Assembly: GCF_006540305.1 (NCBI RefSeq)
Contig: NZ_BJOR01000001.1
Span: 6,572,001-6,636,000 of the forward strand
Length of the DNA stretch: 64,000 nt
Origin: Streptomyces sp. 6-11-2
GTDB taxonomy: Bacteria > Actinomycetota > Actinomycetes > Streptomycetales > Streptomycetaceae
Direction of reading: 5' to 3'
Positions within the stretch are counted from its first letter, which is position 1. The number at the start of each line of letters is the position of its first letter. The notes under the pieces are model-generated. The model saw nothing but the letters and a program-made list of their open reading frames with translations. It was not told the DNA's origin and did not search any database. The position numbers were made by a program, and so were the translations under genes. Shown one piece after another: positions 34,043 to 49,531 of this stretch.

Positions 34043-35329
34043 TCAGGCGAGGGTCACCTCCACCGGCAGCCTCTTGATGCCGTTGACGAAGTTGGAGCGG
34101 ACCCGGGGCACGTCCCCGGCCAGACGGATGCCGGCCAGGCGCGGGACGAGCTCCTCGAACATGATCCGGATCTCGGTGCGGGCCAGGAGGTTGCCCAGGC
34201 ACAGGTGCGGGCTGCCCTTGCCGAAGGTGACGTGGTCGTTGTTCCGCCGGGTGACGTCGAAGTCGTACGGGTTGCCGAAGACCTCCTCGTCACGGTTGCC
34301 GGAGGCGAACCACATGACCACCTTGTCGCCCTCCTTGATCCGCTTGCCGCCGAGTTCGGTGTCGCGGGTGGCGGTGCGGCGGAAGTGGTACACGGGCGAG
34401 GCCCAGCGCAGGAATTCCTCGACCGCGGTGGGGATCAGCGAGGGGTCCTCCTGGAGGCGGGCCAGCTGCTCGGGGTGCTGGAGCAGGGCCAGCATGGAGT
34501 GGCTGATGGTGTGGCGGGTCGTCTCGTTGCCCGCCACCACCAGCAGCAGGAAGTAGTTGTCGAAGTCCTGCGCCGAGAGCGGGACCCCGTCCCGGGGGGT
34601 GCCGTTGACCAGCCGGGAGACCAGGTCGGTGCCGTCGCCACCGCGCCGCTGCCGGGCCAGCTCCCGGCCGTAGGCGAAGACCTCCAGGGAGGCGGGGGAG
34701 CGGAAGGGCAGGTCGCGGTACTTCTCGCTCTCCTCGCTGTGCAGGAGCACGTCGGCGTAGTCCGGGTCGGTGTTGCCGATGATGCGGTTGCCCCAGTCGA
34801 TGAGCTGCTGGTTGTCCTCCGGGGGCACGTCGAGCAGCCGGGCCAGCACGTTGATGGGGAAGTCTGCGGAGACGTCCTTGACGAAGTCGAAGGTGCCCTT
34901 GGCCAGGGCCGCGTCCAGGGTGGTCGCGGTCAGGCCGCGTAGGAAGTCGCCGTAGCTGTTGATCACGTTCGCGCCGAACTGGCGCTGGATCAGGCTGCGC
35001 AGCGCGCGGTGGCGGACCCCGTCGAGTTCGAGGATGGAGGCGCGCTTCTTGATCTGGTCGTCGTCGACCTCCTCCAGGTTGACGAACCGGGTGGAGGTGA
35101 AGGTGTCGGCGTCGCGGTCGACGCGGGCGATGTCCGCGTGCCGGGTCACGCTCCAGAAGCCGGAGTTGGGCGCCTCCTCGGGCTGCCAGTGCACCGGGTC
35201 CTCGTGGCGCAGGGTGTGGAACATGCGCCAGGGGGTGACTCCGTCGGTGAAGTTGTCCAGGTCGGCGAGGTTCACGTCGGCCAGCGGCAGAGGCTCGCGG
35301 ACGGCGTCGGACGGGGTCGGGGTGGTCAT
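34043..35329 (-). CDS. Cytochrome P450
   Basis: A 428-residue soluble haem monooxygenase. I-helix VVAGNETTRHTISHSMLALL with the oxygen-activating A/G-x-x-T pattern, K-helix EEFLRW (ExxR), and haem loop FGKGSPHLCLGNLLAR with the Cys ligand near residue 375. Overall sequence style resembles bacterial terpenoid/alkyl hydroxylases (CYP111/CYP124-like), but substrate cannot be read. Second gene of a leftward unit after the glutamine-synthetase-like ligase. Electron partners (ferredoxin and reductase) are the first genes of the divergent operon. Confidence 0.93.
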   Translation of the reverse strand: MTTPTPSDAVREPLPLADVNLADLDNFTDGVTPWRMFHTLRHEDPVHWQPEEAPNSGFWSVTRHADIARVDRDADTFTSTRFVNLEEVDDDQIKKRASILELDGVRHRALRSLIQRQFGANVINSYGDFLRGLTATTLDAALAKGTFDFVKDVSADFPINVLARLLDVPPEDNQQLIDWGNRIIGNTDPDYADVLLHSEESEKYRDLPFRSPASLEVFAYGRELARQRRGGDGTDLVSRLVNGTPRDGVPLSAQDFDNYFLLLVVAGNETTRHTISHSMLALLQHPEQLARLQEDPSLIPTAVEEFLRWASPVYHFRRTATRDTELGGKRIKEGDKVVMWFASGNRDEEVFGNPYDFDVTRRNNDHVTFGKGSPHLCLGNLLARTEIRIMFEELVPRLAGIRLAGDVPRVRSNFVNGIKRLPVEVTLA

Positions 35330-35421
35330 GGGCGGTGTCTCCTCGGCGTCACGGGGCTCGGTGCCGGCGGGATCCGGCGTCAGGGGGCGGGGGCCCGGTG
35401 CCACGGGCGGGGCGGGCTCGG

Positions 35422-36777: not shown

Positions 36778-36883
36778 CGGAGTCTCCTCTGGGGAATGTG
36801 GGGCGCTTCCCAGGCCGGAGCGGGCGCTGGGAGAGGGGAAGAGGGGCGGCGCCGCACTGCGGGGAGGAGCAGGGGCCGCTCAA

Positions 36884-36899
36884 CGTTTGGTGCCAAACG
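36884..36899. promoter_or_regulatory. Operator A, CGTTTGG-N2-CCAAACG palindrome
   Basis: CGTTTGGTGCCAAACG is a perfect 7+7 inverted repeat. On the minus strand it follows TTGCGG and CATACC elements spaced like a promoter, so a bound repressor would block the ligase/P450 unit. Similar sequences occur at 36992-37007 and 45043-45058. The remaining bases of 36778-37121 hold no gene. Confidence 0.72.
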
Positions 36900-36963
36900 G
36901 TATGGACCCCCGTCACCTCGCCGCAAGAGGCTGGCCGCAAAAATTTATCCATCCGGATAGCTA

Positions 36964-37007
36964 TTGACCAGGGTCCGGCCGCTTCCTATGTTGTTTGAAG
37001 CCAAACG
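36964..37007 (+). promoter_or_regulatory. Promoter with operator B for the ferredoxin operon
   Basis: TTGACC (36964-36969) and TATGTT (36987-36992) are 17 bases apart, a sigma70-like pair. The palindrome TGTTTGAAGCCAAACG (36992-37007) covers the expected transcription start and matches operator A at 13 of 16 positions. TATCC/GGATA at 36946-36959 is a further small inverted repeat just upstream. Confidence 0.65.
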
Positions 37008-37121
37008 AGTTCGGGGTGCGGTGTCACCCACCCCGTTGGCCGGGGCCCGGCCGCATCCGGTCCGGGCCCCATTCCCTCCCAGCTCCCCCGCCCGACGCCC
37101 TCAGCACCAGGAGGACCGGCC

Positions 37122-37310
37122 ATGAAGGTCGTCGTCGACATGAACAAGTGCCAGGACCACGGTCAGTGCGTCTTCGCCGCCCCCGACGTCTTCAGCTTCG
37201 ACGACACCGGCCGTCTGGCCTACGTCGGCGACCCCGACGACGCGCTGCGCGACGAGGTCGAGGAGGCCGCCGACGTCTGCCCGCTCCAGGCCATCCGGAT
37301 CGAGGACTGA
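37122..37310 (+). CDS. [3Fe-4S]-type ferredoxin
   Basis: A 62-residue electron carrier with three cluster cysteines: Cys10 and Cys16 (CQDHGQC) and Cys53 (DVCPLQAI). The residue at the fourth position is His, as in P450-associated [3Fe-4S] ferredoxins. ATG after AGGAGGACC. Three bases before the reductase gene, so reductase, ferredoxin and P450 form a complete class I monooxygenase system. Confidence 0.94.
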   Translation: MKVVVDMNKCQDHGQCVFAAPDVFSFDDTGRLAYVGDPDDALRDEVEEAADVCPLQAIRIED

Positions 37311-37313
37311 GCC

Positions 37314-38522
37314 GTGCGCGCACCCGTCGTCGTGGCCGGCGCCTCCATGGCCGGTCTGCGTGCCGCCGAACAGCTCCGGGCCGCCGGATACTCCGGCCCG
37401 ATCACCCTGGTCGGCGAGGAACCCCACATGCCCTACAACCGGCCGCCGCTGTCCAAGGAGGTCCTGGCCGGCAAGGCGGCCTTCGAGTCGCTGGCCTTCA
37501 GGCCCCGTGCCGCGGTCGCCGACGCCGAATGGCGCCTGGGCACCAGGGTCGTCGCCGCCGACCTCGACCGCCGCCTCGTCGAACTCGACGACGGCGAGAC
37601 CCTCTCCTACTCTGGACTCGTCGTCGCCACCGGGATGCGGCCCCGCCGCCTGCGCTGCCCCGGACCCCTGCGCGGACGGCACACCGTGCGAACGATCGAC
37701 GACGCCCGCGAGCTGCGCGCGGCTCTGATCCGCCCGGGCGCCCGGGTGGTCGTGGTGGGCGCGGGCTTCATCGGCTGCGAGGTCGCCGCCACCGCCGTCG
37801 CCCTCGGCGCCGCCGAGGTGACCGTCGTGGACCCGCTGCCCCTGCCCATGGCCGCACCGCTCGGCGAACTGCTCGCCGGGGCCCTGCTGAAACGGCACGA
37901 GGAACGCGGAGTGCGCTTCGCGCTCGGCACCGGTGTGGCCGGCTTCGAGGGCGCGGACCAGGTCACCGGCGTGCTGCTCGGCGACGGGACCGTGCTCCCC
38001 GCGGACGTCGTGGTGGAGTCGGTCGGATCGGTCGCCAACACCGAATGGCTCGACGGCAACGGCCTCGACCTCACCGACGGGGTGCTCACCGACGAGCACC
38101 TGCGCGTCGGTTCATGCCCCGAGGTGGTGGCGGTCGGCGACGTCGCCCGTTTCCCCAACGCCCGCTACGACGGCGTACCCCGCCGCGTCGAGCACTGGTC
38201 GATCCCCACCGACACCGCCAAGCACGCCGCCCGCGTGCTCGCCGCCCGCCTTGACGGCACCGACGCCCGCCTCGACGCGTTCGCGCCGCTGCCCACCTTC
38301 TGGAGCGACCAGCACGACTTCCGCCTCCAGTCCTTCGGCGCGCCCGGGCTCGGCCTCGGCGACGTACGGATCCTCGACGGCGACCCGGAGGGGGACGTGC
38401 TCGCCGGCTACCACACCGGCGGCCGCCTCGTCGGCGTCGTCGCCCTCGGCGGTCAGGCCGCGGCGGCCGCCGCGGCCCGCCACCGCGCGGAACTGCTCAA
38501 GCTGCCCGCCCTCACCGCGTAA
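37314..38522 (+). CDS. Ferredoxin reductase, FAD/NAD-dependent
   Basis: A 402-residue putidaredoxin-reductase-type flavoprotein that passes electrons from NAD(P)H to the neighbouring ferredoxin. FAD site VVVAGASMAGLRAAEQLRAA at the N-terminus, MPYNRPPLSKE typical of the family, VVATGMRPRRLRC, NAD site RVVVVGAGFIGCEVAATAVA about residue 145, and second FAD motif VVAVGDVARF. GTG start three bases after the ferredoxin stop. Confidence 0.95.
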   Translation: MRAPVVVAGASMAGLRAAEQLRAAGYSGPITLVGEEPHMPYNRPPLSKEVLAGKAAFESLAFRPRAAVADAEWRLGTRVVAADLDRRLVELDDGETLSYSGLVVATGMRPRRLRCPGPLRGRHTVRTIDDARELRAALIRPGARVVVVGAGFIGCEVAATAVALGAAEVTVVDPLPLPMAAPLGELLAGALLKRHEERGVRFALGTGVAGFEGADQVTGVLLGDGTVLPADVVVESVGSVANTEWLDGNGLDLTDGVLTDEHLRVGSCPEVVAVGDVARFPNARYDGVPRRVEHWSIPTDTAKHAARVLAARLDGTDARLDAFAPLPTFWSDQHDFRLQSFGAPGLGLGDVRILDGDPEGDVLAGYHTGGRLVGVVALGGQAAAAAAARHRAELLKLPALTA

Positions 38523-38534
38523 GGAACGCCTGCC

Positions 38535-39341
38535 ATGACCACCGTCCGCGGATTCTTCCACCCCAAGACGGCGACGGGCGCCTCGTCGCTGATCCCCTCC
38601 CCGCCGTGGCACTACTCCGGCGACCTGCTCACTGTCGAGTACCGCACCGACCCGGCACGCGTGCGCGAACTGCTGCCCGAGCCGCTGGAACTCGCCGACG
38701 ACGACCCCGGCGCCGTGGCGCTGATCTGGGCGGACTGGCAGTCCTGCGCCGCTTCCGGCGAAGAGCTGCTCGACCCGGTGCGCGCCCAGTACAAGGAGGC
38801 CTTCGCCGTTGTCCGCTGCACGTATCGCGGGCAGACGTACACGCGGTGCGTCCACATCTGGGTCGACAAGGACTTCGCCATCGCCCGCGGGCTGCACCAG
38901 GGCTACCCGAAGAAGTTCGGCTCCATCCACCAGACCCGCCCGCACCCCTACGGGCCGGCCCCGCGGATCGAGGCGGGCGCCCGCTTCGGCGCGACGCTCG
39001 CCGCCGCCGACCGCCGTATCGCCCAGGCCGTGGTCACCCTGCGCGAGCCGTCCGACACCAACGGCTTCGTCAACGGCCACCCCATGGCCCACCACCGCTG
39101 GCTGCCGTCCGTCGAGAAGGGCAAGGGCCTCGCCCTGGACGAGCTGATCGAGTCCGGCGCCGCCTCCTTCGAGGGCGGGCAGCCGTGGGTCGGCGAAGCC
39201 GATCTGGAGCTGTTCGAGGCGCCCACCGAGGAACTGGCCCGGCTGGAGGTGCGCGAGCCCATCGCCGCGTACTACCGCCAGGTCGGCGTGGTGTGGGACG
39301 GCGGCCGCCTGCTGGAGTCCGGCACGTCCGGAGCCGAGTGA
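38535..39341 (+). CDS. Acetoacetate decarboxylase-family protein
   Basis: A 268-residue protein of the ADC fold. The segment IARGLHQGYPKKFGSIHQTR carries adjacent Lys residues, as at the Schiff-base site of acetoacetate decarboxylase, and EYRTDPARVRELLPEPLEL opens the family's N-terminal strands. ADC-fold enzymes decarboxylate beta-keto acids or do related aldol/dehydration chemistry. Between the P450 redox genes and the ring-cleavage genes it could decarboxylate or isomerise a ring-fission product. Role inferred from position only. Confidence 0.82.
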   Translation: MTTVRGFFHPKTATGASSLIPSPPWHYSGDLLTVEYRTDPARVRELLPEPLELADDDPGAVALIWADWQSCAASGEELLDPVRAQYKEAFAVVRCTYRGQTYTRCVHIWVDKDFAIARGLHQGYPKKFGSIHQTRPHPYGPAPRIEAGARFGATLAAADRRIAQAVVTLREPSDTNGFVNGHPMAHHRWLPSVEKGKGLALDELIESGAASFEGGQPWVGEADLELFEAPTEELARLEVREPIAAYYRQVGVVWDGGRLLESGTSGAE

Positions 39342-39375
39342 CGCACCCGCAGACGAGACACCCTGGAGACCGGAC

Positions 39376-40842
39376 ATGACCGACACCCACACCATCACCG
39401 TCGCCTCAGTCGCCGTCGACACCCGGCACTGGATCGGCGGCGAACGCGTCGCCTCCGCGGGCACCTTCACCGACGTCTCGCCCATCGACGGCGCCGCGCT
39501 CGGCGAGATCTCCCGCGGTACCGCGAGCGAGGCCGCCGCGGCCGTGGCCGCCGCCAAGGCCGCCTTCCCCGCCTGGGCCGCCACCCCGCCCGCCGAACGC
39601 GCCCGCCTCCTGCACGCCATCGCCGACGGCGTGGAGAAGCGGCTCGAAGATCTCGCGATCGTCGAGACCACCGACAACGGCGCCCTGCTGCGCTCCCACC
39701 GCCGCGGTGTCATGCCGCGCGTCGCGCACAACTTCCGCTTCTTCGCCGACTGGCTGCTCCGGCTCGGCCGCGAGGACTTCGAGACTCGCGGCCACACCAA
39801 CCACGTCAGCTGGGACCCGGCCGGCCCCTGCGTGCTGATCACGCCGTGGAACGCGCCGCTGATGCTGGCCACCTGGAAGGTCGCCCCGGCCCTCGCCGCC
39901 GGCAACACGGTGATCCTGAAGCCCGCCGAGTGGTCCCCGCTGACCGCCTCGCTGCTCGCCGACATCGCCGCCGAGGCCGGGCTCCCGGCCGGCGTCCTCA
40001 ACGTCGTCCAGGGCCTCGGCTCGGAGATCGGCGACGCGCTCACCTCGCATCCGGACGTGCGCCGGATCAGCTTCACGGGCTCCGTCCCGACGGCCAGGCG
40101 CATCTCCGCGTCGGCCGCCGCGAACCTCACCCCGCTCAGCCTCGAACTCGGCGGCAAGTCCCCGCTGCTGGTGTTCGCCGACGCCGACCTCGACCTCGCC
40201 GTGGACCTCGCGGTGGAGCAGTACGACAACGCCGGCCAGGTCTGCCTGGCGGGCACCCGGCTGCTGGTGGAGGAGTCGATCGCCGAGGAGTTCACCCGTC
40301 GCTTCAGGGAGAAGGCCTCCCGGCTGGTGCAGGGCGACCCGCGCGACGAGGCCACCGACATCGGCCCCAACATCCACCCCCGCCAGCTGGAGAAGATAGA
40401 CGGCTTCGTGCGGCGGGCGCTCGCGGCCGGGGCCCGGGCCGTCATCGGCGGCCACCGGAAGGACGACCGGTTCTACGCACCGACGCTGCTGACCGACGTC
40501 GCCCAGGACTCGGAGATCGTGCAGGAGGAGGTCTTCGGCCCCGTGCTGACCCTCCAGACCTTCGGCACCGAGGAAGAGGCCGTCCGCCTCGCCAACGACA
40601 CCCGCTTCGGCCTGGCCGCCACCCTCACCACCGGCGACCACGAGCGCGCCGAACGCGTCACCGCGCGGCTCGTCGCCGGCACCGTCTGGGTCAACTGCTT
40701 CTTCGTCCGCGACCTCCAGGCCCCCTTCGGCGGCTCCCGCCACTCCGGCGTCGGCCGGGAGGGCGGCACCTGGAGCTTCGACTTCTACTGCGACCTGAAG
40801 AACACCGTCACCGCCCCGGAGGGATGGAAGGACCATGGGTGA
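39376..40842 (+). CDS. Aldehyde dehydrogenase, CHMS-dehydrogenase-like
   Basis: A 488-residue NAD(P)-dependent dehydrogenase. Cofactor loop TPWNAPLMLATWKVAPALAA with KPAEWSP, FTGS at the nucleotide end, catalytic Glu in LELGGKSP and nucleophile Cys in NAGQVCLAGTRLL. Beside an extradiol dioxygenase and a FAH-family enzyme it most resembles, by context, 5-carboxymethyl-2-hydroxymuconate semialdehyde dehydrogenase (HpaE/HpcC). Its 3' end overlaps the dioxygenase start by eight bases. Confidence 0.92.
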   Translation: MTDTHTITVASVAVDTRHWIGGERVASAGTFTDVSPIDGAALGEISRGTASEAAAAVAAAKAAFPAWAATPPAERARLLHAIADGVEKRLEDLAIVETTDNGALLRSHRRGVMPRVAHNFRFFADWLLRLGREDFETRGHTNHVSWDPAGPCVLITPWNAPLMLATWKVAPALAAGNTVILKPAEWSPLTASLLADIAAEAGLPAGVLNVVQGLGSEIGDALTSHPDVRRISFTGSVPTARRISASAAANLTPLSLELGGKSPLLVFADADLDLAVDLAVEQYDNAGQVCLAGTRLLVEESIAEEFTRRFREKASRLVQGDPRDEATDIGPNIHPRQLEKIDGFVRRALAAGARAVIGGHRKDDRFYAPTLLTDVAQDSEIVQEEVFGPVLTLQTFGTEEEAVRLANDTRFGLAATLTTGDHERAERVTARLVAGTVWVNCFFVRDLQAPFGGSRHSGVGREGGTWSFDFYCDLKNTVTAPEGWKDHG

Positions 40843-41770
40843 GATCGTCGGGGCGGGGCTGCTCGCCCACGTCCCCACCGTCGTACTGCCGAAAGAGACG
40901 CGGCTGGAGCTGAACGAGGGCAAGGAGATCACCCTCGTCACCGGCCTCCAGCAGCTGCGCGAGGACGTCTTCGCACGTGATGACGCCCACGCATACGACA
41001 CTGTGGTGGTCCTGGACTCCCACTGGGCGACCACCGTCGAGTTCGTCGTCACCGCCCAGCACCGGCGCGCGGGCCTGTTCACCTCCGAGGAGCTGCCGCG
41101 CGGCATGTGCCGGATGCCCTTCGACTTCCCCGGCGACCCCGAACTCGCGCGGAACATCGCTTCGTTCGCCGACAAGCACGGCACCTGGATCACGGCGATC
41201 GACGACGAGTACCTGCCGATCTACTACGCCACCATCAACCTGTGGAAGTTCCTCGGCGAGGGACTGCCCGACAAGCGGTGGGTGACCATCGGCGTCTGCC
41301 AGACCGGCGACATGGAGGACCACCTGCGCCTCGGCCGCGCCCTCGCCGACGGCATCGCCGCCACCCCCGGCCGCCGGGTCCTGCTCATCGCCTCCGGTGC
41401 CCTGTCGCACACCTTCTGGCCGCTGCGCGAGCTGCGCGACCACGAAGCCAGCGACCCGGCCCACATCTTCACGCCCGAGGCCCGCGAGGCGGACCACGAG
41501 CGCATCGCCTGGTTCAAGAAGGGCCGCCACGACAGGGTCCTCGACACCATGGACGAGTTCTGGAGGTACAAGCCCGAGGCGAAGTTCTTCCACTACCTGA
41601 TGATGGCCGGCGCGCTCGGCGAGCGGGCCTGCGTCGCCAGGGCCCGCCAGTACGGCGAGTACGAGAACTCCATCGGCACCGGCCAAGTCCACCTGTGGTT
41701 CGACCGCCCGGCCGAGGGCTGGACCGGCAGCGGTCCGCCCACGTCCACCGCCCCGCACCCGACCGCCTAG
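40835..41770 (+). CDS. Class III extradiol ring-cleavage dioxygenase (HpcB/HpaD-like)
   Basis: A 311-residue LigB-superfamily protein. The opening VGAGLLAHVPTVVLPKE contains the first iron His; DTVVVLDSHWATTVEFVVTA holds the second (SHW); LIASGALSHTFWPLRELR gives the SGxLSH catalytic region; and FHYLMMAGALGERA and SIGTGQVHLWF match the end of homoprotocatechuate 2,3-dioxygenases. These enzymes cleave catechols next to the hydroxyls using Fe(II). The exact catechol is unknown. Start ATG overlaps the ALDH gene. Confidence 0.88.
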   Translation: MGEIVGAGLLAHVPTVVLPKETRLELNEGKEITLVTGLQQLREDVFARDDAHAYDTVVVLDSHWATTVEFVVTAQHRRAGLFTSEELPRGMCRMPFDFPGDPELARNIASFADKHGTWITAIDDEYLPIYYATINLWKFLGEGLPDKRWVTIGVCQTGDMEDHLRLGRALADGIAATPGRRVLLIASGALSHTFWPLRELRDHEASDPAHIFTPEAREADHERIAWFKKGRHDRVLDTMDEFWRYKPEAKFFHYLMMAGALGERACVARARQYGEYENSIGTGQVHLWFDRPAEGWTGSGPPTSTAPHPTA

Positions 41771-41781
41771 AAAGGCCCCTC

Positions 41782-42627
41782 ATGCCCGAGTACCGCCGCA
41801 TCCTGCTCGACGGTGCCGCCGTCCAGGTCACCGTCGACGCGGACGAACTGATCGCCGGGGACGGCCGCCGCGTCAAGACCGACGACGCGCAGCACCTGCC
41901 CCCGGTGGTCCCCTCCAAAGTCATCGCCGTCCACCTCAACCACCGCAGCCGGGTGGACGAGTTCCGGATCGGCCTGCCCGACACCCCGACGTACTTCCAC
42001 AAGCCGACCTCCGCCCTCAACTCCCACAAGGGCGCGATCGTGCGCCCCGAGGGCTGCAAGTGGCTCAACTACGAGGGCGAGGTCGCCATCGTCATCGGCA
42101 GGACGGCGCGCAACATCTCGCCGGCCGAGGCGGGGGAGTACATCGCCGGGTACACCGTCGCCAACGACTACGGCCTGCACGACTTCCGCGACACCGACGC
42201 CGGTTCCATGCTGCGCGTCAAGGGCTCCGACACCCTCTGCCCGCTCGGCCCCGGCCTCGTCACCGACTGGGACTTCCACGGCAAGCGGCTGCGGACCTAC
42301 GTCAACGGCGAAGTCGTCCAGGACGGCTCGACCGACGAGATGACCTGGGACATGCACTACCTGGTCGCGGACATCGCCCGCACCATCACCCTCCACCCCG
42401 GTGACGTGCTGCTCTCCGGCACCCCCGCCAACTCGCGTCCCGTCCGGCCGGGCGACGTCGTCGAGGTCGAGGTCGAGGGACTGGGCCGGCTCACCAACCA
42501 CGTCGTCACCGGCCCGACCCCGATCCGGACCGACGTCGGCGCCCAGCCCACCGAGTCCGAGGAGGTGCTGTCCACCGCGCTCGGCGGCGACTGGGAATTC
42601 CGTGGCATCCGCCCACCACGCCGCTGA
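41782..42627 (+). CDS. Fumarylacetoacetate hydrolase-family enzyme (HpaG/HpcE-like)
   Basis: A 281-residue FAH-fold enzyme. Metal-site residues appear in EGEVAIVIGRTARN and the following GYTVANDYGLHDFRDTDAGS MLRVKGSDTLCPLGPG. The C-terminal motif GDVLLSGTPANSRPVRPGDV is diagnostic. In homoprotocatechuate degradation this family does the decarboxylation/isomerisation after semialdehyde oxidation. Last gene of the rightward operon, 11 bases after the dioxygenase. The TnpB insertion begins about 30 bases downstream. Confidence 0.9.
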   Translation: MPEYRRILLDGAAVQVTVDADELIAGDGRRVKTDDAQHLPPVVPSKVIAVHLNHRSRVDEFRIGLPDTPTYFHKPTSALNSHKGAIVRPEGCKWLNYEGEVAIVIGRTARNISPAEAGEYIAGYTVANDYGLHDFRDTDAGSMLRVKGSDTLCPLGPGLVTDWDFHGKRLRTYVNGEVVQDGSTDEMTWDMHYLVADIARTITLHPGDVLLSGTPANSRPVRPGDVVEVEVEGLGRLTNHVVTGPTPIRTDVGAQPTESEEVLSTALGGDWEFRGIRPPRR

Positions 42628-42655
42628 ACGGCCCGTGCTCGATAGGGTCGGTGCC

Positions 42656-44022
42656 TTGACTTCTCCCCCTCCTGAAGGAGGGGGATTCTCACGGCTCGCG
42701 CTGTGAGGTTTTCTGCTTCGTCGCCGACTGCCCGTCCGGAGTTCTCCGTTGAGGTCTTACACCGGCTCCACAGACCGACGCCGCCAGCCCGGCGGCCAGG
42801 AGGTTCTTCGCCGCGTTCGCGTCCCGGTCATGGGTCGTCCCGCAGGCGCACGTCCAGGTACGGACGCTCAGCGGCATGCTCTCGGCGAGAGCGCCGCAGG
42901 CGGAGCACAGCCTGGAGGACGGGAAGAAGCGGTCGACCGCGATCACTTCCCGCCCGTACCAGGCGGCCTTGTACTCCAGAAGGCTCCTGAACTGAGACCA
43001 TGCCGCATCACTGATGGCGCGGGCCAGGCTCCGGTTCTTGACCATGTTGCGCACGGTGAGGTCCTCGATCACGAGCGTTTGGTTTTCACACACGAGTCGA
43101 GTGGTCAGCTTGTGCAGGTGATCACGCCTGCGGTCGGTGATCCGGGCGTGGATCCTCGCGACCTTCAGCCGGGCTTTGCACCGGTTGGCGCCGTCGCCCC
43201 TGGCCTTGCGGGACAGCTCCCGCTGGGCCCTGGCCAGGCGGGCGCGGTCCTTGCGTTCGTGCCTCGGGTTGGCGATCTTCTCACCGGTCGAGAGGGTCAG
43301 CAGGTGGTCCAGTCCCACGTCGATCCCGACCGCCGCGTCCGCAGCCGGCAGCGGGCGCACGCTGGGGTCCTCGCACAGCATCGACACGAACCAGCGCCCC
43401 GCGCTGTCCTGGGAGACGGTCACCGTGGACGGGGATGCGCCCTCAGGCAGGGGCCGGGACCAGACGATGTCCAGCGGCCGGTCCATCTTGGCCAGCGTCA
43501 GCTGCCCGTCCCGGATCCGGAACCCGCTGGTGGTGTACTCCGCGCTCCTGCACGACTTCTTGCGCGACTTGAACCGCGGGTACTTGGCCCGCTTGCCGAA
43601 GAAGCCTGTGAACGCCGCCTGCAAGTGTCGCAGCGCCTGCTGAAGCGGCACCGCGGACACCTCGCCCAAGTAGGCCAGTTCCTCGGTCTTCTTCCATTCA
43701 GTCAGCATCGCCGACGTCTGGTTGTAGTTGACCCGCTCCTGCCGCGCCCACGCCTCGGTACGGGCCGCGAGTGCCATGTTGTAGACCTTGCGCACACAGC
43801 CGAACGTGCGCGACAGCTCGGCTGCCTGCGCATCGGTCGGATAGAAGCGGTACTTGAACGCCCGCTTCACCTGAATGGCCGTCATACCTCACAAACTATC
43901 AAATCAGCCTGTGACGATCTGCTGGTATCCGGCTGGTGGACAACGAATCGCCCAGCGGCGATTCGCCATTCCCTGCCCTGCTCCGCAGGAGTCCGATTCC
44001 TCCCCTGCCTGAAGGCGGGGGT
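42656..44022 (-). mobile_element. IS1341-type (IS200/IS605 group) TnpB element
   Basis: A tnpB gene framed by two hairpins with the same TGAA loop. The right end is TCCCCCTCC/GGAGGGGGA at 42664-42685, followed outward by TTGAC (TCAA on the element strand). The left end is CCCCTGCC/GGCGGGGG at 44002-44021. No tnpA is present, so movement would depend on a partner. The right-end segment and the last part of tnpB are where an omega (reRNA) guide RNA is expected, with the guide read from minus-strand flank starting near 42655. Confidence 0.7.
42689..43885 (-). CDS. tnpB: TnpB RNA-guided nuclease (OrfB)
   Basis: A 398-residue transposon-encoded nuclease, ancestor-type of Cas12. N-terminal AFKYRFYPTDAQAAELSRTF GCVRKVYN is the usual TnpB opening. 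RuvC acidic residues are Asp189 (GIDVGLDH), Glu274 (LVIEDLTV) and Asp355 (THDRDANAAKN), all present. The zinc finger has CSACG (327, 330) and CACG (346, 348). It appears intact. It sits between the FAH-family gene and the tetR gene of the catabolic cluster, on the opposite strand to both. Confidence 0.93.
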   Translation of the reverse strand: MTAIQVKRAFKYRFYPTDAQAAELSRTFGCVRKVYNMALAARTEAWARQERVNYNQTSAMLTEWKKTEELAYLGEVSAVPLQQALRHLQAAFTGFFGKRAKYPRFKSRKKSCRSAEYTTSGFRIRDGQLTLAKMDRPLDIVWSRPLPEGASPSTVTVSQDSAGRWFVSMLCEDPSVRPLPAADAAVGIDVGLDHLLTLSTGEKIANPRHERKDRARLARAQRELSRKARGDGANRCKARLKVARIHARITDRRRDHLHKLTTRLVCENQTLVIEDLTVRNMVKNRSLARAISDAAWSQFRSLLEYKAAWYGREVIAVDRFFPSSRLCSACGALAESMPLSVRTWTCACGTTHDRDANAAKNLLAAGLAASVCGAGVRPQRRTPDGQSATKQKTSQREP

Positions 44023-44040
44023 TTCCTCGGAGGTACCTCG

Positions 44041-44916
44041 ATGACCGAGCCCGGACAGCCAGACGAGGCAGCGGAGTCCGGGGCACCCGCGGAGAGCACG
44101 GACCTCACGGCTCCCGGCAGCCCCGCCGCCCCCGCGCCCACCGCGGGGACGGGGGCGCCCGCCGGGTCTGCGGCTTCCGCTTCCGGGGTGAAGCCCGGTG
44201 AGGCCAACGGGATGGACCAGGCCGAGGAGTCCCATGAGGCCGCCGGGCCCGACCAAGCCGTAGAACCCTGTGAGGCCACCGGGCTTGATGCGGCCGTGGA
44301 GTCCGGCGCGCCCGCCGCAGCCGGTCCTGGCCGGCGGTCGCGTAAGCGGGTGCGGAACTACGGGGCCGGCCGGGACGCGCTGCTCGACGCCGCCGTGCGG
44401 GTGGTGGCCCGCGGGGGGCTGCGCAAGCTGACCTACCGGGCCGTGGCGCAGGAGGCCGGGGTCACGCACGGGCTCGTCGTGCACCACTTCGGCTCGCGCG
44501 ATGCCCTGATCGAGGAGGCACTCGCCCACGCCGTGCGCTCCTCACTGAACAGCAGCGCGCTCGAACCCGGCACGGGCAGGGTCGCGGACTTCTCCGCCGG
44601 GCTGTCGGACATGGTGGAGTCCGGCCCGGACCTCCAGGCCTTCCAGTACGAGCTGCTGCTGGAGGCGCGCCGCCGTCCCGAGCTCATGCCGCACCTGCGC
44701 GCCCTGTACGAGGAGTATTTCGGCGCCACCCGGCGGGAGCTGTCCCAGATGCTCGCCCGGCCGGTCGACCGGGGCCTGTACCGGCTGGTCTTCGCGGCCC
44801 TGGAGGGCCTGGTCCTGCACCAGCTCGTGTTCGGCGAGCGCGAGGTCACCGAAGAGGCCCTCGCCCGGCTGCGCGAACTGCTCGGGCAGCTCGCCGCCGA
44901 CCCTGACGAGGCCTGA
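44041..44916 (+). CDS. TetR-family regulator with long disordered N-terminus
   Basis: A 291-residue protein. Residues 1-98 are low-complexity (Ala, Pro, Glu, Gly), followed by a basic patch GRRSRKRVRNYG. Then the TetR HTH: ALLDAAVRVVARGGLRKLTY RAVAQEAGVTHGLVVHHFGS. The remaining 150 residues form the helical ligand/dimer domain. ATG 44041 has GGAGGT at 44030-44035, only a few bases beyond the end of the TnpB element, so the insertion abuts its translation signal. Probable regulator of the catabolic genes through the CGTTTGG palindromes. Inducer unknown. Confidence 0.85.
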   Translation: MTEPGQPDEAAESGAPAESTDLTAPGSPAAPAPTAGTGAPAGSAASASGVKPGEANGMDQAEESHEAAGPDQAVEPCEATGLDAAVESGAPAAAGPGRRSRKRVRNYGAGRDALLDAAVRVVARGGLRKLTYRAVAQEAGVTHGLVVHHFGSRDALIEEALAHAVRSSLNSSALEPGTGRVADFSAGLSDMVESGPDLQAFQYELLLEARRRPELMPHLRALYEEYFGATRRELSQMLARPVDRGLYRLVFAALEGLVLHQLVFGEREVTEEALARLRELLGQLAADPDEA

Positions 44917-45003
44917 CCCGTACGCCGCACCGGCGCGGCCAGGGCCGTGGGCCACGGTGGCGCGGGAATCGCCGATCCGCACGGATTCCCCGCCCTCACC
45001 CCC

Positions 45004-45058
45004 TTGTCAAACGGATAGTTCCGCCCTCACGATGAGGCAACTCGTTTGGCCTGAAACG
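45004..45058 (+). promoter_or_regulatory. Promoter region with operator C for permease operon
   Basis: CGTTTGGCCTGAAACG at 45043-45058 is a degenerate form of operator A. The flank ACTCGTTTGGC is shared with operator B read on the minus strand. TTGTCA at 45004-45009 with CACGAT at 45028-45033 is a weak promoter match upstream, and CAAACGG at 45008-45014 is an extra half site. Confidence 0.55.
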
Positions 45059-45077
45059 ACCCTCCTTTCTCTGGCAG

Positions 45078-46541
45078 GTGATCCGAGTGGACAGTCAGAC
45101 GGCCTCCGCGGAGCGGACCGTACGGGACACATCCACCGCAGCCACGCTCAAGCCCAATGCGCTGGGCGTTTTGGGCATCCTCTTCTTCGTCCTGTCCGCG
45201 CAGGCCCCCCTCACCGGGATCGCCGGGGCGGCCCCGATCTCCGTGGCCATCGGCAACGGAGCCGGCACACCCGCCGCCTATGTGCTCGCGGGCGCCATGA
45301 TCCTGCTGTTCTCGGTCGGCTTCGTCGCCATGGGACGGCACGTCGTCGACGCCGGCGCCTTCTACACCTACATCGGCACCGGGCTCGGCCGTACCGCCGG
45401 AGCCGGCAGCGCGGGCCTCGCCCTGTTCTCGTACTGCGTCATCCAGGCGGCCATGTACGGGCTGTACGGCTCCATCGTCAGCGGACTGGTCGCCCACCAC
45501 ACCGGCCTGGACCTGCCGTGGTGGGTCTGGGCGCTGGCCACCATGGCCGTGGTGAAGGTGCTCGGGGCCGCCGGTATCGAGATGGGCGCCCGCGTACTGG
45601 CCGTCTTCGTCACCGCCGAGTTCAGCATCCTGCTGGTGTTCGGACTGGTCATGCTGTTCAAGGGCGGCGGGCCCGAGGGGCTCGGCGTGACCGACAGCTT
45701 CTCGCCGTCCGCGGCGCTCCGGGGCGCACCCGGGGTCGCCGTGATGTTCGCCGTCGCCTCCATGTTCGGCTTCGAGGCCACCGCGATCTACGGCGAGGAG
45801 GCGCGCGACCCCAGCAGAACCGTGCCGCGGGCCACCTACCTGTCCGTCCTCGTGGTCACCGGCTTCTTCGCGCTGACCTCCTGGATGCTGATCTCCGCCT
45901 ACGGCGCCTCGAAGGCGTCGGCGGCCGCGGGCGAGGCGCTGGCGAGCGGGGACTCGACCGGCTTCGTCTTCGCGCCGATCGCCGCGGAGTTCGGCGGCTG
46001 GGTGAACCAGGTGCTGCCGATCCTGCTCGCCACCTCCCTGTTCGCGGGCATCCTCACCTTCCACAACTCCGCCAACCGCTACCTGTTCTCGCTCGGCCGC
46101 GACGGGCTGCTGCCGCCGGGCCTGTGCAGGCTCAACTCCCGCCACGCGCCCGCGGCCGCCGGCTGGGTGCAGACCGTGGTCGCCGTGGCCCTGGTCGTCC
46201 CGTTCGCGCTGACCGGCAAGGACCCGGTGCTGACCCTCTTCTCCTGGTTCAGCGGGGTCGCCGTCCTGGCGATGATGCTGCTCTACCTGCTGACCTCGGT
46301 GTCGGTGGTCGTCTTCTTCCGCCGCGAGCGCCTGGACGGCCGGGTGTGGAACACGCTCGTCGCCCCGGTGCTGGGCGTGCTGGGCCTGGCGGGCGCGATC
46401 TGGCTGATCCTCGCCAACTTCACGACCCTGATCGGCGGTTCGACCGGCACGGCCGTGTGCCTCACCCTCCTGGTGCCGGCGGTACTGGCGCTCGGCGCGG
46501 TCAAGGAACGGGTCGGGCGACGGCGCGCGGCGACGCCGTAA
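45078..46541 (+). CDS. APC-family amino acid/amine permease
   Basis: A 487-residue secondary transporter with about twelve membrane helices. Family marks are LGVLGILFFVLSAQAPLTGI AGAAP at helix 1 with its unwound Gly-rich segment, and the FGFEATAIYGEEARDPSRTV PRATY motif after helix 6. With PuuA-, PuuC- and PuuD-like neighbours the likely cargo is an amine. GTG 45078 or GTG 45087 may be the start, and neither has a strong ribosome site. First gene of an operon with the next two. Confidence 0.92.
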   Translation: MIRVDSQTASAERTVRDTSTAATLKPNALGVLGILFFVLSAQAPLTGIAGAAPISVAIGNGAGTPAAYVLAGAMILLFSVGFVAMGRHVVDAGAFYTYIGTGLGRTAGAGSAGLALFSYCVIQAAMYGLYGSIVSGLVAHHTGLDLPWWVWALATMAVVKVLGAAGIEMGARVLAVFVTAEFSILLVFGLVMLFKGGGPEGLGVTDSFSPSAALRGAPGVAVMFAVASMFGFEATAIYGEEARDPSRTVPRATYLSVLVVTGFFALTSWMLISAYGASKASAAAGEALASGDSTGFVFAPIAAEFGGWVNQVLPILLATSLFAGILTFHNSANRYLFSLGRDGLLPPGLCRLNSRHAPAAAGWVQTVVAVALVVPFALTGKDPVLTLFSWFSGVAVLAMMLLYLLTSVSVVVFFRRERLDGRVWNTLVAPVLGVLGLAGAIWLILANFTTLIGGSTGTAVCLTLLVPAVLALGAVKERVGRRRAATP

Positions 46542-46593
46542 CCCCCTCACCCACCCTGAAACGACGCACGATCAACGTGGTCTGGAGGACCGC

Positions 46594-48081
46594 ATGTCCG
46601 CTGTCACCCACGACGAATGGCTCCACCGGGCCAAGGAGTTCCAGCCCCCTCGCGCGCACCACATCGACGGCGCCGAGGAGTCCGGCGACGGCGCCTTCCG
46701 GGTCGTCTCGCCCCGGGACGGCCAGGTGCTGACCGAGGTCGCCGACGCCGGCCCCGCCGAGGTCGACGCCGCTGTGGCCGCCGCTCGCCGTGCCTTCGAC
46801 AGCGGACCGTGGCCGCGGTGGGCGCCCGCCGACCGCGGCCGGGTCCTCCTGCGCATCGCCGATCTCCTCCAGGAGCGGCGTACGGACCTCGCCCTCGCCG
46901 TGAGCCTGGAGATGGGCAAGCCGGTCAGCGACGCCCACGACATCGAACTGCGCGCCGTGATCAACACCTTCCGCTGGTACGGGCAGCTCGCAGACAAGCT
47001 CACGGACGAGTCCCCGCACACGGCCGCGGACGCGCTCGCCCTGGTCACCCGGGAGCCGGCCGGCGTCGTCGGCGCGGTGGTGCCCTGGAACTTCCCCCTC
47101 ACGCTCGCCGGCTGGAAGGTCGCCCCCGCGCTGGCGGCCGGCTGCACCGTCGTGCTGAAGCCCTCGGAGAACGCGCCGCTGTCCGCGCTGCTGCTCGCCC
47201 GGATCGCCACCGAGGCAGGGCTGCCGCCCGGGGTGCTCAACGTGGTGAACGGCGACGGGCCGGTGGCCGGGCGGGCCCTCGGCCTCCACCCGGACGTCGA
47301 CGTGCTGGCGTTCACCGGTTCCACGGCCGTCGGCCGCCACTTCCTGCGCTACTCCGCCGACTCCAACCTCAAGCGGGTCTGGCTGGAGCTCGGCGGCAAG
47401 TCGCCGAACATCGTCCTGCCCGACGCCCCCGACCTGGCGAGGGCCGCCGCCACCGCCGCCTGGGGCATCTTCTTCAACCAGGGCGAGATGTGCACCGCGC
47501 CCTCCCGGCTGCTGGTGCACTCCTCGATCGCCGAGGAGGTCACCGAGGCGGTCGTGGCACGGGCGCGCGAACTGCGGGTGGGCGACCCCCTGGACCCCGC
47601 CACTGAGATGGGCGCCCTGGCCGGCGAGGCCCACCTGGGCCGTGTGCTGGACCATGTCCGGCAGGGCGCCGGCGACGGGGCCCGCCTGCGCACCGGCGGC
47701 CGGCGCATCCTGGCGGAGACCGGCGGCGTCTACGCCGAGCCCACCGTCTTCGACCGCGTCGACCCGCGCAGCCGGCTCGCCCGCGAGGAGATCTTCGGCC
47801 CGGTCCTGTCCGTGCTGACCTTCGACGGGATCGACGAGGCGGTCGCGCTCGCCAACGCCACCGAGTACGGTCTCGCCGCCGGCCTGTGGACCTCCGACCT
47901 GTCCACCGCGCACCGCGTCTCCCGCGCCCTGAGGGCCGGCACCGTCTGGGTCAACTGCTACGAGGAGGGAGACCTCACCGTCCCCTTCGGCGGCATGAAG
48001 CAGTCGGGCAACGGCCGGGACAAGTCCGTCCACGCCCTGGAGAAGTACACCGAACTGAAGACCACCTGGATCCAGCTGTGA
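46594..48081 (+). CDS. Aldehyde dehydrogenase, PuuC-like
   Basis: A 495-residue NAD(P)-dependent aldehyde dehydrogenase. VVPWNFPLTLAGWKVAPALA with KPSENAPLSA binds the cofactor, FTGSTAVGRHFL follows, Glu in LELGGKSPNIV and Cys in FFNQGEMCTAPSRLL are catalytic. The C-terminus has VPFGGMKQSGNGRDKSVHAL EKYTELK as in gamma-glutamyl-aminobutyraldehyde and betaine-type dehydrogenases. It would oxidise the aldehyde formed after amine oxidation. Its stop overlaps the next start (GTGA). Confidence 0.92.
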   Translation: MSAVTHDEWLHRAKEFQPPRAHHIDGAEESGDGAFRVVSPRDGQVLTEVADAGPAEVDAAVAAARRAFDSGPWPRWAPADRGRVLLRIADLLQERRTDLALAVSLEMGKPVSDAHDIELRAVINTFRWYGQLADKLTDESPHTAADALALVTREPAGVVGAVVPWNFPLTLAGWKVAPALAAGCTVVLKPSENAPLSALLLARIATEAGLPPGVLNVVNGDGPVAGRALGLHPDVDVLAFTGSTAVGRHFLRYSADSNLKRVWLELGGKSPNIVLPDAPDLARAAATAAWGIFFNQGEMCTAPSRLLVHSSIAEEVTEAVVARARELRVGDPLDPATEMGALAGEAHLGRVLDHVRQGAGDGARLRTGGRRILAETGGVYAEPTVFDRVDPRSRLAREEIFGPVLSVLTFDGIDEAVALANATEYGLAAGLWTSDLSTAHRVSRALRAGTVWVNCYEEGDLTVPFGGMKQSGNGRDKSVHALEKYTELKTTWIQL

Positions 48082-48794
48082 GCCGAACCCCCGTGCGTCC
48101 CCTGATCGCGATCCCCGCCCGCTTCTGCGCCACCACCTCCGCGCTGCGCTTCGCCGCCGAGGTCAACGCCCGCGCCCTGGTCGAGGCGGTGTGGCGGGCC
48201 GGCGGCGAGCCGGCCACCATCCACCCGGCGGACCCCGCCGGGCACGACGTCGCCGCGCGGCTCGCCCGCTTCGACGGCGTCCTGCTGCCCGGCGGCGGCG
48301 ACCTGGCACCGCACCGGTACGGCGCCGCCGACGCCCACGACAGCGTGTACGACGTCGACGACCTCCAGGACGCCTTCGACCTTGAGGTGGCCCGCCGCGC
48401 CCTGGGGTCCGGACTGCCGCTGCTGGCGATCTGCCGCGGTCTCCAGGTGGTCAACACCGTGCTGGGCGGCACGCTGCACCAGGACATGGGCGGCCCCGGC
48501 CAGGACCACCGGCACGTCCGGCACCCCGTGTCCCTCGCCCCCGGCTCGGCACTGGCCCGGATCACCCGTGCCGACAAGGTGGAGGCCTCCTGCTACCACC
48601 ACCAGCACATCGACCGGCTCGGCGAGGGCCTGACGGTCACCGCCCGGGCCGCCGACGGCACCGTGGAGGGCGTGGAGCGCGCGGACGGCACGGGCTGGTT
48701 CGTGGCCGTGCAGTGGCATCCCGAGGACACCGCGCACGAGGATCCGGCGCAGCAGCGCCTGTTCGACGCGCTGGTGGGAGCGGCCCGTGCCTGA
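48078..48794 (+). CDS. Class-I amidotransferase-like gamma-glutamyl hydrolase (PuuD-like, peptidase C26)
   Basis: A 238-residue hydrolase. RPLIAIPARF opens the domain, DGVLLPGGGDLAPHRYG is the family loop, nucleophile Cys lies in LLAICRGLQVVNTVLGG, and the His-Glu pair in VAVQWHPEDTAHEDP. PuuD-type enzymes cut the gamma-glutamyl amide made by the GS-like ligase, freeing glutamate and the processed amine-derived product. Coupled to the ALDH gene. Together with the ligase at 35422 it closes a gamma-glutamyl cycle. Confidence 0.92.
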   Translation: MSRTPVRPLIAIPARFCATTSALRFAAEVNARALVEAVWRAGGEPATIHPADPAGHDVAARLARFDGVLLPGGGDLAPHRYGAADAHDSVYDVDDLQDAFDLEVARRALGSGLPLLAICRGLQVVNTVLGGTLHQDMGGPGQDHRHVRHPVSLAPGSALARITRADKVEASCYHHQHIDRLGEGLTVTARAADGTVEGVERADGTGWFVAVQWHPEDTAHEDPAQQRLFDALVGAARA

Positions 48795-49412: not shown

Positions 49413-49531
49413 TCCCTCGCTCTGATCGCCGGGACCGGGCGGGCCGGTGCCGCCCGCCCGGTCATTCGGGCTCAAAGTGTACGGCGATCAGTTCCGGGGA
49501 GAGGCGCCCCTCCCTCGTGCGCGACCCGTCC

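Follow-up and report, generated by a model that had tools for sequence, protein, structure and literature searches.

A conserved Streptomyces gene cluster that may degrade phenethylamine-type amines through gamma-glutamylation, P450 oxidation and ring fission

The described systems closest to the gene cluster reported here are the Puu pathway for putrescine, the Hpa meta-cleavage pathway (HpaB-I), the aniline and 1-naphthylamine systems, the pip/mor operons of Mycobacterium, and the GlnA4 ethanolamine pathway of Streptomyces coelicolor. The cluster lies in a 64-kb window (the whole stretch of DNA that was analysed), which is part of contig C1 of the 8.7-Mb genome of Streptomyces sp. 6-11-2. 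It contains genes for a cytochrome P450, a ferredoxin (Fd) and ferredoxin reductase (FdR), a glutamine synthetase (GS)-like ligase, an acetoacetate-decarboxylase (ADC)/MppR-family protein, two aldehyde dehydrogenases (ALDH1, ALDH2), a LigB-type extradiol dioxygenase, a FAH-family protein, a permease, and a PuuD-like peptidase C26 hydrolase (Table 1). We interpret this cluster as a probable regulon for the breakdown of a biogenic amine of the phenethylamine type, which could be tyramine and perhaps phenethylamine or dopamine, and place the probability of this reading at roughly 57%. We infer every reaction and the substrate from gene content, protein families, and an exact carbon count.

With the Puu pathway, the cluster shares a GS-like ligase, a PuuC-like aldehyde dehydrogenase, a C26 hydrolase, and an amine permease; a PuuE-like transaminase is also found in five of the 14 distant clusters described below. 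It differs in having no PuuB-type amine oxidase among the genes scanned at 34043-48794 and would cleave an aromatic ring instead. Scores against the PuuA (265 of 650 bits), PuuC, and PuuD models are far below the equivalog cut-offs. Likewise, the cluster resembles the Hpa pathway in its LigB extradiol dioxygenase, HpaE-like aldehyde dehydrogenase, HpaG-type FAH protein, and HpaR-like MarR regulator, with scores below the cut-offs of the HpaD_Fe, HpaE, and HpaG models. However, it has a P450 in place of HpaBC and the ADC/MppR protein in place of HpaH and HpaI, has no HpaF, and would keep the amine as a gamma-glutamyl amide.

The aniline and 1-naphthylamine systems (AtdA1-5, NpaA1; ‘GoaS’) also have a GS-like ligase that feeds an oxygenase, followed by ring cleavage, according to the accessible text of PMC11335346. 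In those systems a Rieske dioxygenase removes the nitrogen and free catechol is cleaved, whereas the P450 of the cluster would leave the nitrogen on and the dioxygenase would cleave a glutamylated catechol. The mycobacterial pip/mor operons (CYP151) combine a P450, a ferredoxin, and a GS-like gene in one operon, with the order CYP151/pipA, CYP150 or CYP51 - fdx - glnA in the available part of PMC10516948. They act on saturated N-heterocycles, and the available parts of PMC10516948 and PMC9477822 mention no ring-fission dioxygenase set. In Gulosibacter, GS and P450 genes are neighbours by locus tag (PMC9477822, in part). The GlnA4 pathway shares a GS-like ligase, an aldehyde dehydrogenase, and an amidohydrolase, and use of a monoamine via gamma-glutamyl intermediates has been proposed for it; the accessible portion of PMC6529630 mentions no P450 or dioxygenase. 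The GS-like ligase of the cluster is 28-32% identical to the GS paralogues of its own genome, none of which was matched to GlnA4 by name. Glutamylation of aromatic amines is itself known (PMC11335346), and PauA7 is mentioned in PMC6529630, both sources being available in part.

The first-pass annotation of this DNA held that gamma-glutamyl routes are not known to combine a P450 with such a ring-fission set. We rejected the idea that pairing a P450 with a GS gene is novel on its own, given the operons already mentioned in the available text of PMC10516948 and PMC9477822. The union of gamma-glutamylation and P450 oxidation with ring fission was not found in the openly licensed papers searched, as far as their accessible text extends. 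The cluster would join two known logics anew rather than present new chemistry.

The gene arrangement is conserved far beyond chance. A dioxygenase search of a collection of named species gave 304 relatives, from which 80 loci were kept, representing Streptomyces plus one Kitasatospora. In the fetched DNA, a P450 accompanies the dioxygenase in 70 of these 80 loci; of the other ten, seven stop at a contig edge, two carry a decarboxylase instead (the decarboxylase type), and one is rearranged. In a genus sample of 392 genomes, the dioxygenase was found at an E value of 1e-30 or better in 90 genomes and 94 places. All 87 places with at least 74% identity (83 genomes) were taken as genus clusters, and the seven remaining places (57-60% identity, other contexts) were excluded from the cluster count. 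The 87 clusters comprise 71 with a P450 and no decarboxylase, ten with a decarboxylase and no P450, six with neither, and none with both. One cluster (L139) revealed a P450 and a GS once a wider flank was read; the earlier, narrower count was 70, 10, 7, and 0. Contig ends cut four of the six clusters with neither gene (L165, L186, L226, L136). Conserved co-occurrence, the check suggested alongside the first-pass annotation, is very strong.

Gene content was counted in the 70 full genus loci, which are the clusters flanked on each side by more than 8 kb; this rule leaves out every decarboxylase-type stretch. The ADC, ALDH1, LigB, and FAH genes are present in all 70, and the P450 and GS genes are each present in 69 (68 before the wider reading of L139). 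The Fd, FdR, and ALDH2 genes each occur in 67 loci, the PuuD-like gene in 65, TetR in 60, the permease in 59, and MarR in 44. The co-conservation of P450, Fd, and FdR across these loci identifies a class I P450 system. A lone P450 would be weak evidence because the genome contains 32 P450 match places, and it is the conservation that carries weight.

Some loci carry further genes. In 17 of the 80 named loci the cluster holds a second, different P450, which in L053 (L053:12646-13842) lies between TetR and permease. A gene with a histone-deacetylase domain (PF00850) adjoins the permease at L010:14336-15457 and L024:15830-16969 and might act as a deacetylase on N-acetyl amines. A class I glutamine amidotransferase-like gene is found in 13 of the 80 loci (for example L041:14540-15253) and in three decarboxylase-type clusters; it brings to mind the aniline system's amidotransferase-like hydrolase. 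The IS605-type OrfB gene of the window was rejected as a component of the system, as none of the 80 related loci has it at an identity of at least 45%.

In the window, the P450 and GS-like genes lie on the minus strand and the ferredoxin, reductase, ADC, ALDH1, LigB, and FAH genes diverge from them, with gaps that are short or overlapping (ALDH1 ends at 40842 and LigB starts at 40835). A third unit holds the permease, ALDH2, and C26 hydrolase genes on the plus strand, followed by MarR on the minus strand. These units share an operator-like palindrome, GTTTG-N4-CAAAC. The pattern was picked by eye in the window, and its real test lies in the other loci. With one mismatch allowed, it has three matches in the window against 0.24 expected, two in the GS-Fd gap and one before the permease. 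At least one site is present in the GS-Fd gap of 71 of 71 loci and upstream of the permease in 68 of 71. Its density is 5.9/kb in the GS-Fd gap and 2.3/kb before the permease, compared with 0.02/kb elsewhere in the same 80 loci; the loci are akin, so this recurrence represents conservation rather than independent evidence.

The palindrome also stands before ALDH1 in all 12 decarboxylase-type stretches scanned (L017, L047, L121-L129, L224) and beside GS in nine of the ten that show a GS or GS remnant, the exception being L127. A MarR relative (66-70% identical) is found in nine of the ten decarboxylase-type genus clusters and a TetR relative in none; in L128, GS and MarR were found in the wider flank. 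Since decarboxylase-type clusters keep the operator and MarR without TetR, MarR is favoured over TetR as the putative operator reader. The MarR protein, for which Saro_0803 is the top model (49.9 bits; cut-off 200) and HpaR the second, is possibly the repressor and a putative HpaR relative. A LysR-like open reading frame (ORF), seen by eye beyond GS in L122, is another possible regulator in the decarboxylase type. The separate units form one conserved candidate regulon through the shared operator. The earlier proposal that gamma-glutamylation, P450 oxidation, and homoprotocatechuate-type ring fission belong to one set is upheld by this operator together with the co-occurrence, and co-expression of the units receives backing at the level of sequence.

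Table 1. Genes and operator-like sites of the cluster, with positions in the window.
Feature	Position	Strand	Family match or remark
Cytochrome P450, 428 aa	34043-35329	-	PF00067 75.6 bits
GS-like putative gamma-glutamyl-amine ligase, 451 aa	35422-36777	-	PF00120 320 bits
Operator-like palindrome GTTTGGTGCCAAAC	36885-36898		GS/ferredoxin intergenic gap
Second operator-like palindrome GTTTGAAGCCAAAC	36993-37006		GS/ferredoxin intergenic gap
Small ferredoxin, putative P450 redox partner	37122-37310	+	PF13370 52 bits
Ferredoxin reductase, putative P450 redox partner	37314-38522	+	PF07992 208 bits, PF14759 30 bits
ADC/MppR-family (acetoacetate-decarboxylase) protein	38535-39341	+	PF06314 194 bits
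ALDH1, HpaE-like semialdehyde dehydrogenase	39376-40842	+	TIGR02299 (HpaE) 528 bits, cut-off 638
LigB-type class III extradiol dioxygenase	40835-41770	+	PF02900 82 bits, cut-off 26
FAH-family isomerase/decarboxylase	41782-42627	+	PF01557 196 bits
IS605-type OrfB gene	42689-43885	-	Inserted between FAH and TetR, splits the region
TetR-family regulator	44041-44916, start uncertain (43936 or 44041)	+	PF00440, PF17940
Operator-like palindrome, 1 mismatch	45044-45057		Upstream of permease
APC-family permease, proposed amine importer	45078-46541	+	PF13520 87 bits
ALDH2, PuuC-like	46594-48081	+	PRK09847 PuuC best model, 552 bits, cut-off 850
Peptidase C26, PuuD-like putative hydrolase	48078-48794	+	PF07722 171 bits; PuuD model 69 bits, cut-off 266
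MarR-family regulator	48834-49475	-	HpaR TIGR02337 47.7 bits, cut-off 121

Every gene named in the first-pass annotation is an open frame at the position it was given there. That list identified the ring-cleavage genes and left out the ADC/MppR, TetR, IS605-type OrfB, and MarR genes; without the ADC/MppR gene, the proposed pathway would have no end.

In the pathway we propose, the permease would import tyramine or a related phenethylamine and the GS-like ligase would form its gamma-glutamyl amide. The P450, with Fd and FdR, would hydroxylate the ring to give gamma-glutamyl-dopamine. LigB would then open the catechol next to the hydroxyls (extradiol cleavage), ALDH1 would oxidise the ring-fission semialdehyde, and the FAH protein would tautomerise and then decarboxylate the product. 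The ADC/MppR protein would hydrate the resulting 2-oxo acid and cleave it, yielding pyruvate and 4-(gamma-glutamylamino)butanal. Finally, ALDH2 would oxidise this aldehyde to the gamma-glutamyl derivative of gamma-aminobutyric acid (GABA), from which the C26 hydrolase would release GABA and glutamate. In putrescine utilisation PuuC acts on this same aldehyde, and the predicted last intermediates are those of the Puu pathway. The homoprotocatechuate and Puu pathways would meet at this compound, because the best family of ALDH2 is PuuC and a PuuD-like gene comes next. A step can be assigned to every conserved enzyme gene in the window, and the muconate isomerase step alone is without a gene of its own.

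The glutamyl group would block cyclisation of the amine onto the aldehyde formed by ring fission, and would tag the intermediates for the Puu-type end. A free amine cyclises in this way in betalamic acid formation. The protecting role suggested in the first-pass annotation fits, since the amine would not be lost before or during opening of the ring; there it had been linked to hydroxylation of the ring. The fullest form of the proposal is a complete, apparently undescribed actinobacterial catecholamine pathway in which glutamylation precedes ring opening and tyramine or dopamine ends as GABA, glutamate, pyruvate, and CO2. In it, one hydratase-aldolase of the ADC fold would stand in for two classical enzymes, and P450 (tyramine) and decarboxylase (DOPA) modules would be swapped. 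We regard it as tentative, with odds just short of even.

The formula closes exactly: dopamine + O2 + H2O - 2H - CO2 + H2O = pyruvate + 4-aminobutanal. The balance also closes for a one-carbon side chain, leaving C3H7NO (3-aminopropanal), and the P450 could act as a demethylase. The substrate might in that case be a benzylamine-type amine degraded to 3-aminopropanal and beta-alanine, or an O-methylated amine demethylated by the P450. We consider either quite improbable, however, as the decarboxylases and a GABA-transaminase-like neighbour in related clusters indicate an amine derived from an aromatic amino acid and GABA as a product.

The individual proteins are compatible with the phenethylamine pathway to different degrees. 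The nearest PDB chains to the P450 are CYP125MRCA (408 bits) and CYP124 (260 bits), and the homologues listed, at least 120, are named only ‘cytochrome’, ‘cytochrome P450’ or ‘methyl-branched lipid omega-hydroxylase’. It is the proposed ring hydroxylase of the gamma-glutamyl amine. The GS-like ligase is below all NCBIfam cut-offs, including that of the GGputSyn/PuuA model (NF045547) quoted above. BLAST local alignments of the ligase with the six other GS-family proteins of the genome give 30-32% identity for five and 28% for the sixth (L240). We took L234 as a true GS for its DGSSI motif. The sequence VPGFEAP of L234, whose Glu is presumably the GS flap residue, aligns with GPDTLAP in the ligase, where this Glu is absent. 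A GS domain without the flap Glu places the ligase with the GS-like amine ligases of the GoaS type. The loss of this Glu is in line with the accessible text of PMC11335346, which reports such residues replaced in the amine ligase NpaA1. The ligase is proposed to be an aromatic-amine glutamylase, although its amine is not predictable from sequence. A further gamma-glutamyl-amine type set of GS-like, ALDH, and C26 hydrolase relatives with an SDR-like gene (the latter by eye) lies on replicon C2 (L241, G000:C2:324900-344800); it showed no link to the cluster.

The dioxygenase carries a LigB domain above the gathering score. It matches 3,4-dihydroxyphenylacetate 2,3-dioxygenase (8iq8) at 62 bits with His12, His63, and His192 aligned, to which we ascribe active-site roles, in keeping with a class III extradiol enzyme. 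Against TIGR02298 (HpaD_Fe) it scores 109 bits (cut-off 316). The second PDB match is 2-aminophenol 1,6-dioxygenase (30 bits), and the order of GS-like, amidotransferase-like, oxygenase, and extradiol genes recalls the aniline system as given in the available text of PMC11335346. These features would suit an amine with ring-bound nitrogen (aniline or aminophenol), a P450 standing in for the Rieske dioxygenase, and a 2-aminophenol-type dioxygenase. We rejected such chemistry and leave it only a slight chance. The dioxygenase is the wrong one (62 bits to the homoprotocatechuate enzyme against 30), the cluster contains no gene for a second (alpha) subunit, neither ALDH2 nor the GABA-transaminase-like genes would have a role, and the amino-acid decarboxylase variant would be unexplained.

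The FAH protein scores 211 bits (cut-off 276) against the C-terminal, decarboxylase half of HpaG and 228 bits against HpcE. In Acinetobacter, an HpaG-type decarboxylase half works with separate isomerases (PMC12718150, in the part available). The closest PDB match of the ADC protein is MppR (163 bits), followed by 6eej/4zbo (157 bits) and 5upb (103 bits). Its GYPKKFG sequence aligns with GMPKQFG of MppR and GYPKKIG of 5upb, a G-x-PK motif whose Lys we take to be catalytic; the ADC domain and the MppR lysine region place it in the ADC/MppR group. The genome contains no HpaH match at 1e-5, with other hydratase/aldolase families outside this search, and its best HpaI match is weak (80 of 369 bits) and 1.27 Mb from the cluster. 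The available text of PMC7820114 reports aldolase action of MppR with pyruvate and an aldehyde as substrates, and that MppR-family proteins have been proposed as aldolases in phenol meta-cleavage in Saccharolobus. The ADC protein is proposed as a candidate hydratase-aldolase that would release pyruvate. ALDH2, proposed as the gamma-glutamylaminobutanal dehydrogenase, also scores 465 bits as the phenylacetaldehyde dehydrogenase StyD, and the C26 protein is a putative gamma-glutamyl hydrolase of PuuD-like type.

The relatives of LigB at 57-60% identity (L141-L147) occur in other contexts. One of these, L145:8674-15365, is partly annotated, has HpaB and HpaC relatives and AsnB-like and TauD-like ORFs (by eye), and has the look of a biosynthetic cluster in which cleavage of a catechol ring is employed. 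The present cluster could by analogy build a pigment or alkaloid by ring cleavage of a glutamyl-catecholamine. Its two aldehyde dehydrogenases, decarboxylase-type FAH, and aldolase candidate speak against this, as do the lack of export, non-ribosomal peptide synthetase or polyketide synthase genes among the window genes scanned and the occurrence of the dioxygenase, at an identity of at least 74%, in 83 of the 392 genus genomes sampled. We give a biosynthetic role the slightest chance of the readings considered.

The decarboxylase-type clusters provide information on the substrate. In L017 and L047, a pyridoxal-phosphate (PLP) decarboxylase of 454 aa lies between FAH and ADC, and a decarboxylase stands beside FAH in all ten genus clusters of this type. 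The best PDB matches of the L017 enzyme are 5hsi (130 bits, ‘putative decarboxylase’), which we take to be a Lactobacillus tyrosine decarboxylase, 6ebn (121 bits), a non-canonical aromatic amino acid decarboxylase, and then 7cwx. Its best NCBIfam matches are two tyrosine decarboxylase families (128 of 905 and 117 of 299 bits). None of the ten stretches has a P450, ferredoxin, reductase or permease relative. Fisher's test for the exclusivity of P450 and decarboxylase gives 5e-9 on the first counts (70/10/7/0), a value that is too small owing to kinship. In a tree of ALDH1, LigB, and FAH (93 rows, with L139 unlabelled), the switch between types takes three changes by parsimony, of which at least two are forced by well-supported branches.

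Read most simply, these data suggest that the P450 produces the catechol from a phenolic amine such as tyramine and is unneeded when dopamine arises within the cell by decarboxylation of L-DOPA. The hydroxylase and permease would be dispensable in the decarboxylase type because the catechol amine is ready-made. No gene for removing the amine nitrogen ahead of ring cleavage was seen in this type. The earlier suggestion of an aromatic amine substrate therefore stands in part: a glutamylated aromatic amine agrees with the data, anilines with ring-bound nitrogen are improbable, and a phenethylamine is likelier, because the decarboxylase variant replaces the P450 and a two-carbon side chain yields GABA. 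The Streptomyces sp. 6-11-2 genome has its own homologue of the variant decarboxylase (78% identical; L119, G000:C2:42000-61000) on a 713-kb replicon, adjoining an ORF that resembles a carboxylate-amine ligase of the glutamate-cysteine-ligase type (by eye); this homologue showed no link to the cluster.

Related clusters are also found outside the genus. A phylum-wide search matched 36 genomes, 33 of them outside Streptomyces, and 14 of the 33 were picked by hand and fetched; in the counts that follow, similarity down to 25% was admitted (one FAH at 33%) in stretches of at most 20 kb. Near LigB, a P450 is present in 11 of the 14, a GS in ten, and both in nine; ALDH1 occurs in 11, ADC in nine, and FAH in nine. 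Five of the 14 have a class III transaminase beside LigB, and the nearest PDB relatives of that in L148 are PuuE and GabT. A class III aminotransferase 31-33% identical to the L148 protein is present in six decarboxylase-type genus clusters (L122-L127). One distant decarboxylase has 4obu as its best PDB match and DOPA decarboxylase as its second.

Another distant locus, L157, is a 4-hydroxyphenylacetate-type cluster (L157:3365-11164) with HpaB (364 of 480 bits), HpaC, HpaE-like, and FAH relatives. Its LigB is 41% identical and its stretch contains no GS or P450, which argues that the two pathways are distinct. It has an ADC-family relative (38% identical) where HpaH/HpaI would be expected; an ADC-family protein would therefore again take the place of the hydratase and aldolase. 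The L157 comparison bears on an ordinary homoprotocatechuate route, in which the amine would be deaminated first, free 3,4-dihydroxyphenylacetate would be cleaved and degraded to succinic semialdehyde, and the GS and C26 proteins would just detoxify or regulate the amine pool. LigB, ALDH1, and FAH are close to HpaD_Fe, HpaE, and HpaG, MarR resembles HpaR, ALDH2 has its StyD score, and decarboxylase-type clusters are mostly without the Puu-type end. Nonetheless, we find this route unlikely. The genes of the window's cluster that were scanned include no amine oxidase, amine dehydrogenase or HpaBC, the HpaD_Fe score is a third of the cut-off, and the decarboxylase type offers no enzyme to free the side chain of its nitrogen before cleavage.

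The only HpaD_Fe match of the genome is the LigB of the cluster. Elsewhere the genome has two HpaB-family genes and two VOC-type HpaD matches below cut-off (200 and 71 of 321 bits). At G000:C1:7514740-7516440, an HpaB-family gene adjoins a weak VOC-type HpaD match, which perhaps represents a separate phenol or hydroxyphenylacetate route. On the basis of these matches, a homoprotocatechuate route could exist apart from the cluster.

Several observations weigh against the phenethylamine pathway. ALDH1, LigB, FAH, ALDH2, and GS are all below equivalog cut-offs and are relatives rather than proven members of the families concerned. No separate CHM isomerase (HpaF) gene was seen in the cluster, which leaves a gap. 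Of the six genus clusters with neither P450 nor decarboxylase, two are not among the four listed above: both genes are missing within about 22 kb on either side in L231, where the nearest GS relative (78% identical) is about 22 kb away, and L232 has neither on its contig and no ferredoxin or reductase, with just 1.7 kb of contig left of GS. For the L017 decarboxylase, the similarity that points to tyrosine or DOPA is weak (128 of 905 bits). In seven of the ten decarboxylase-type clusters, no ALDH2 or PuuD relative is present in the first stretch or in the next 14 kb of either flank (a single flank for L224), and the last two steps would therefore need genes elsewhere; six of these seven are those with the class III aminotransferase. 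The GS of L017 is a remnant match (55% over 181 of 451 residues), and L120 has a decarboxylase and a FAH piece but no LigB. Outside the genus, five of the 14 distant clusters carry a PLP decarboxylase together with a P450, so the exclusivity of the two is confined to the genus. Two distant decarboxylases match diaminobutyrate decarboxylase first in NCBIfam (191 and 180 of 900 bits). The L148 transaminase likewise matches a general aspartate aminotransferase family first (463 of 574 bits), with GABA transaminase in third place (363 of 507 bits).

If the proposed pathway is correct, it would explain how a bacterium can cleave a catecholamine ring while the side-chain amine is kept from cyclising on the product, and it would provide a direct link between aromatic and GABA metabolism. 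Each step yields one testable prediction. Aldolase-like proteins of the ADC fold would gain a reaction that they carry out in vivo, and the cluster would be a source of two enzymes for glutamyl-catecholamines, one GS-like and the other a dioxygenase. In addition, it would give a function to the P450/GS/LigB set carried by about one fifth of the sampled Streptomyces and by distant actinobacteria.

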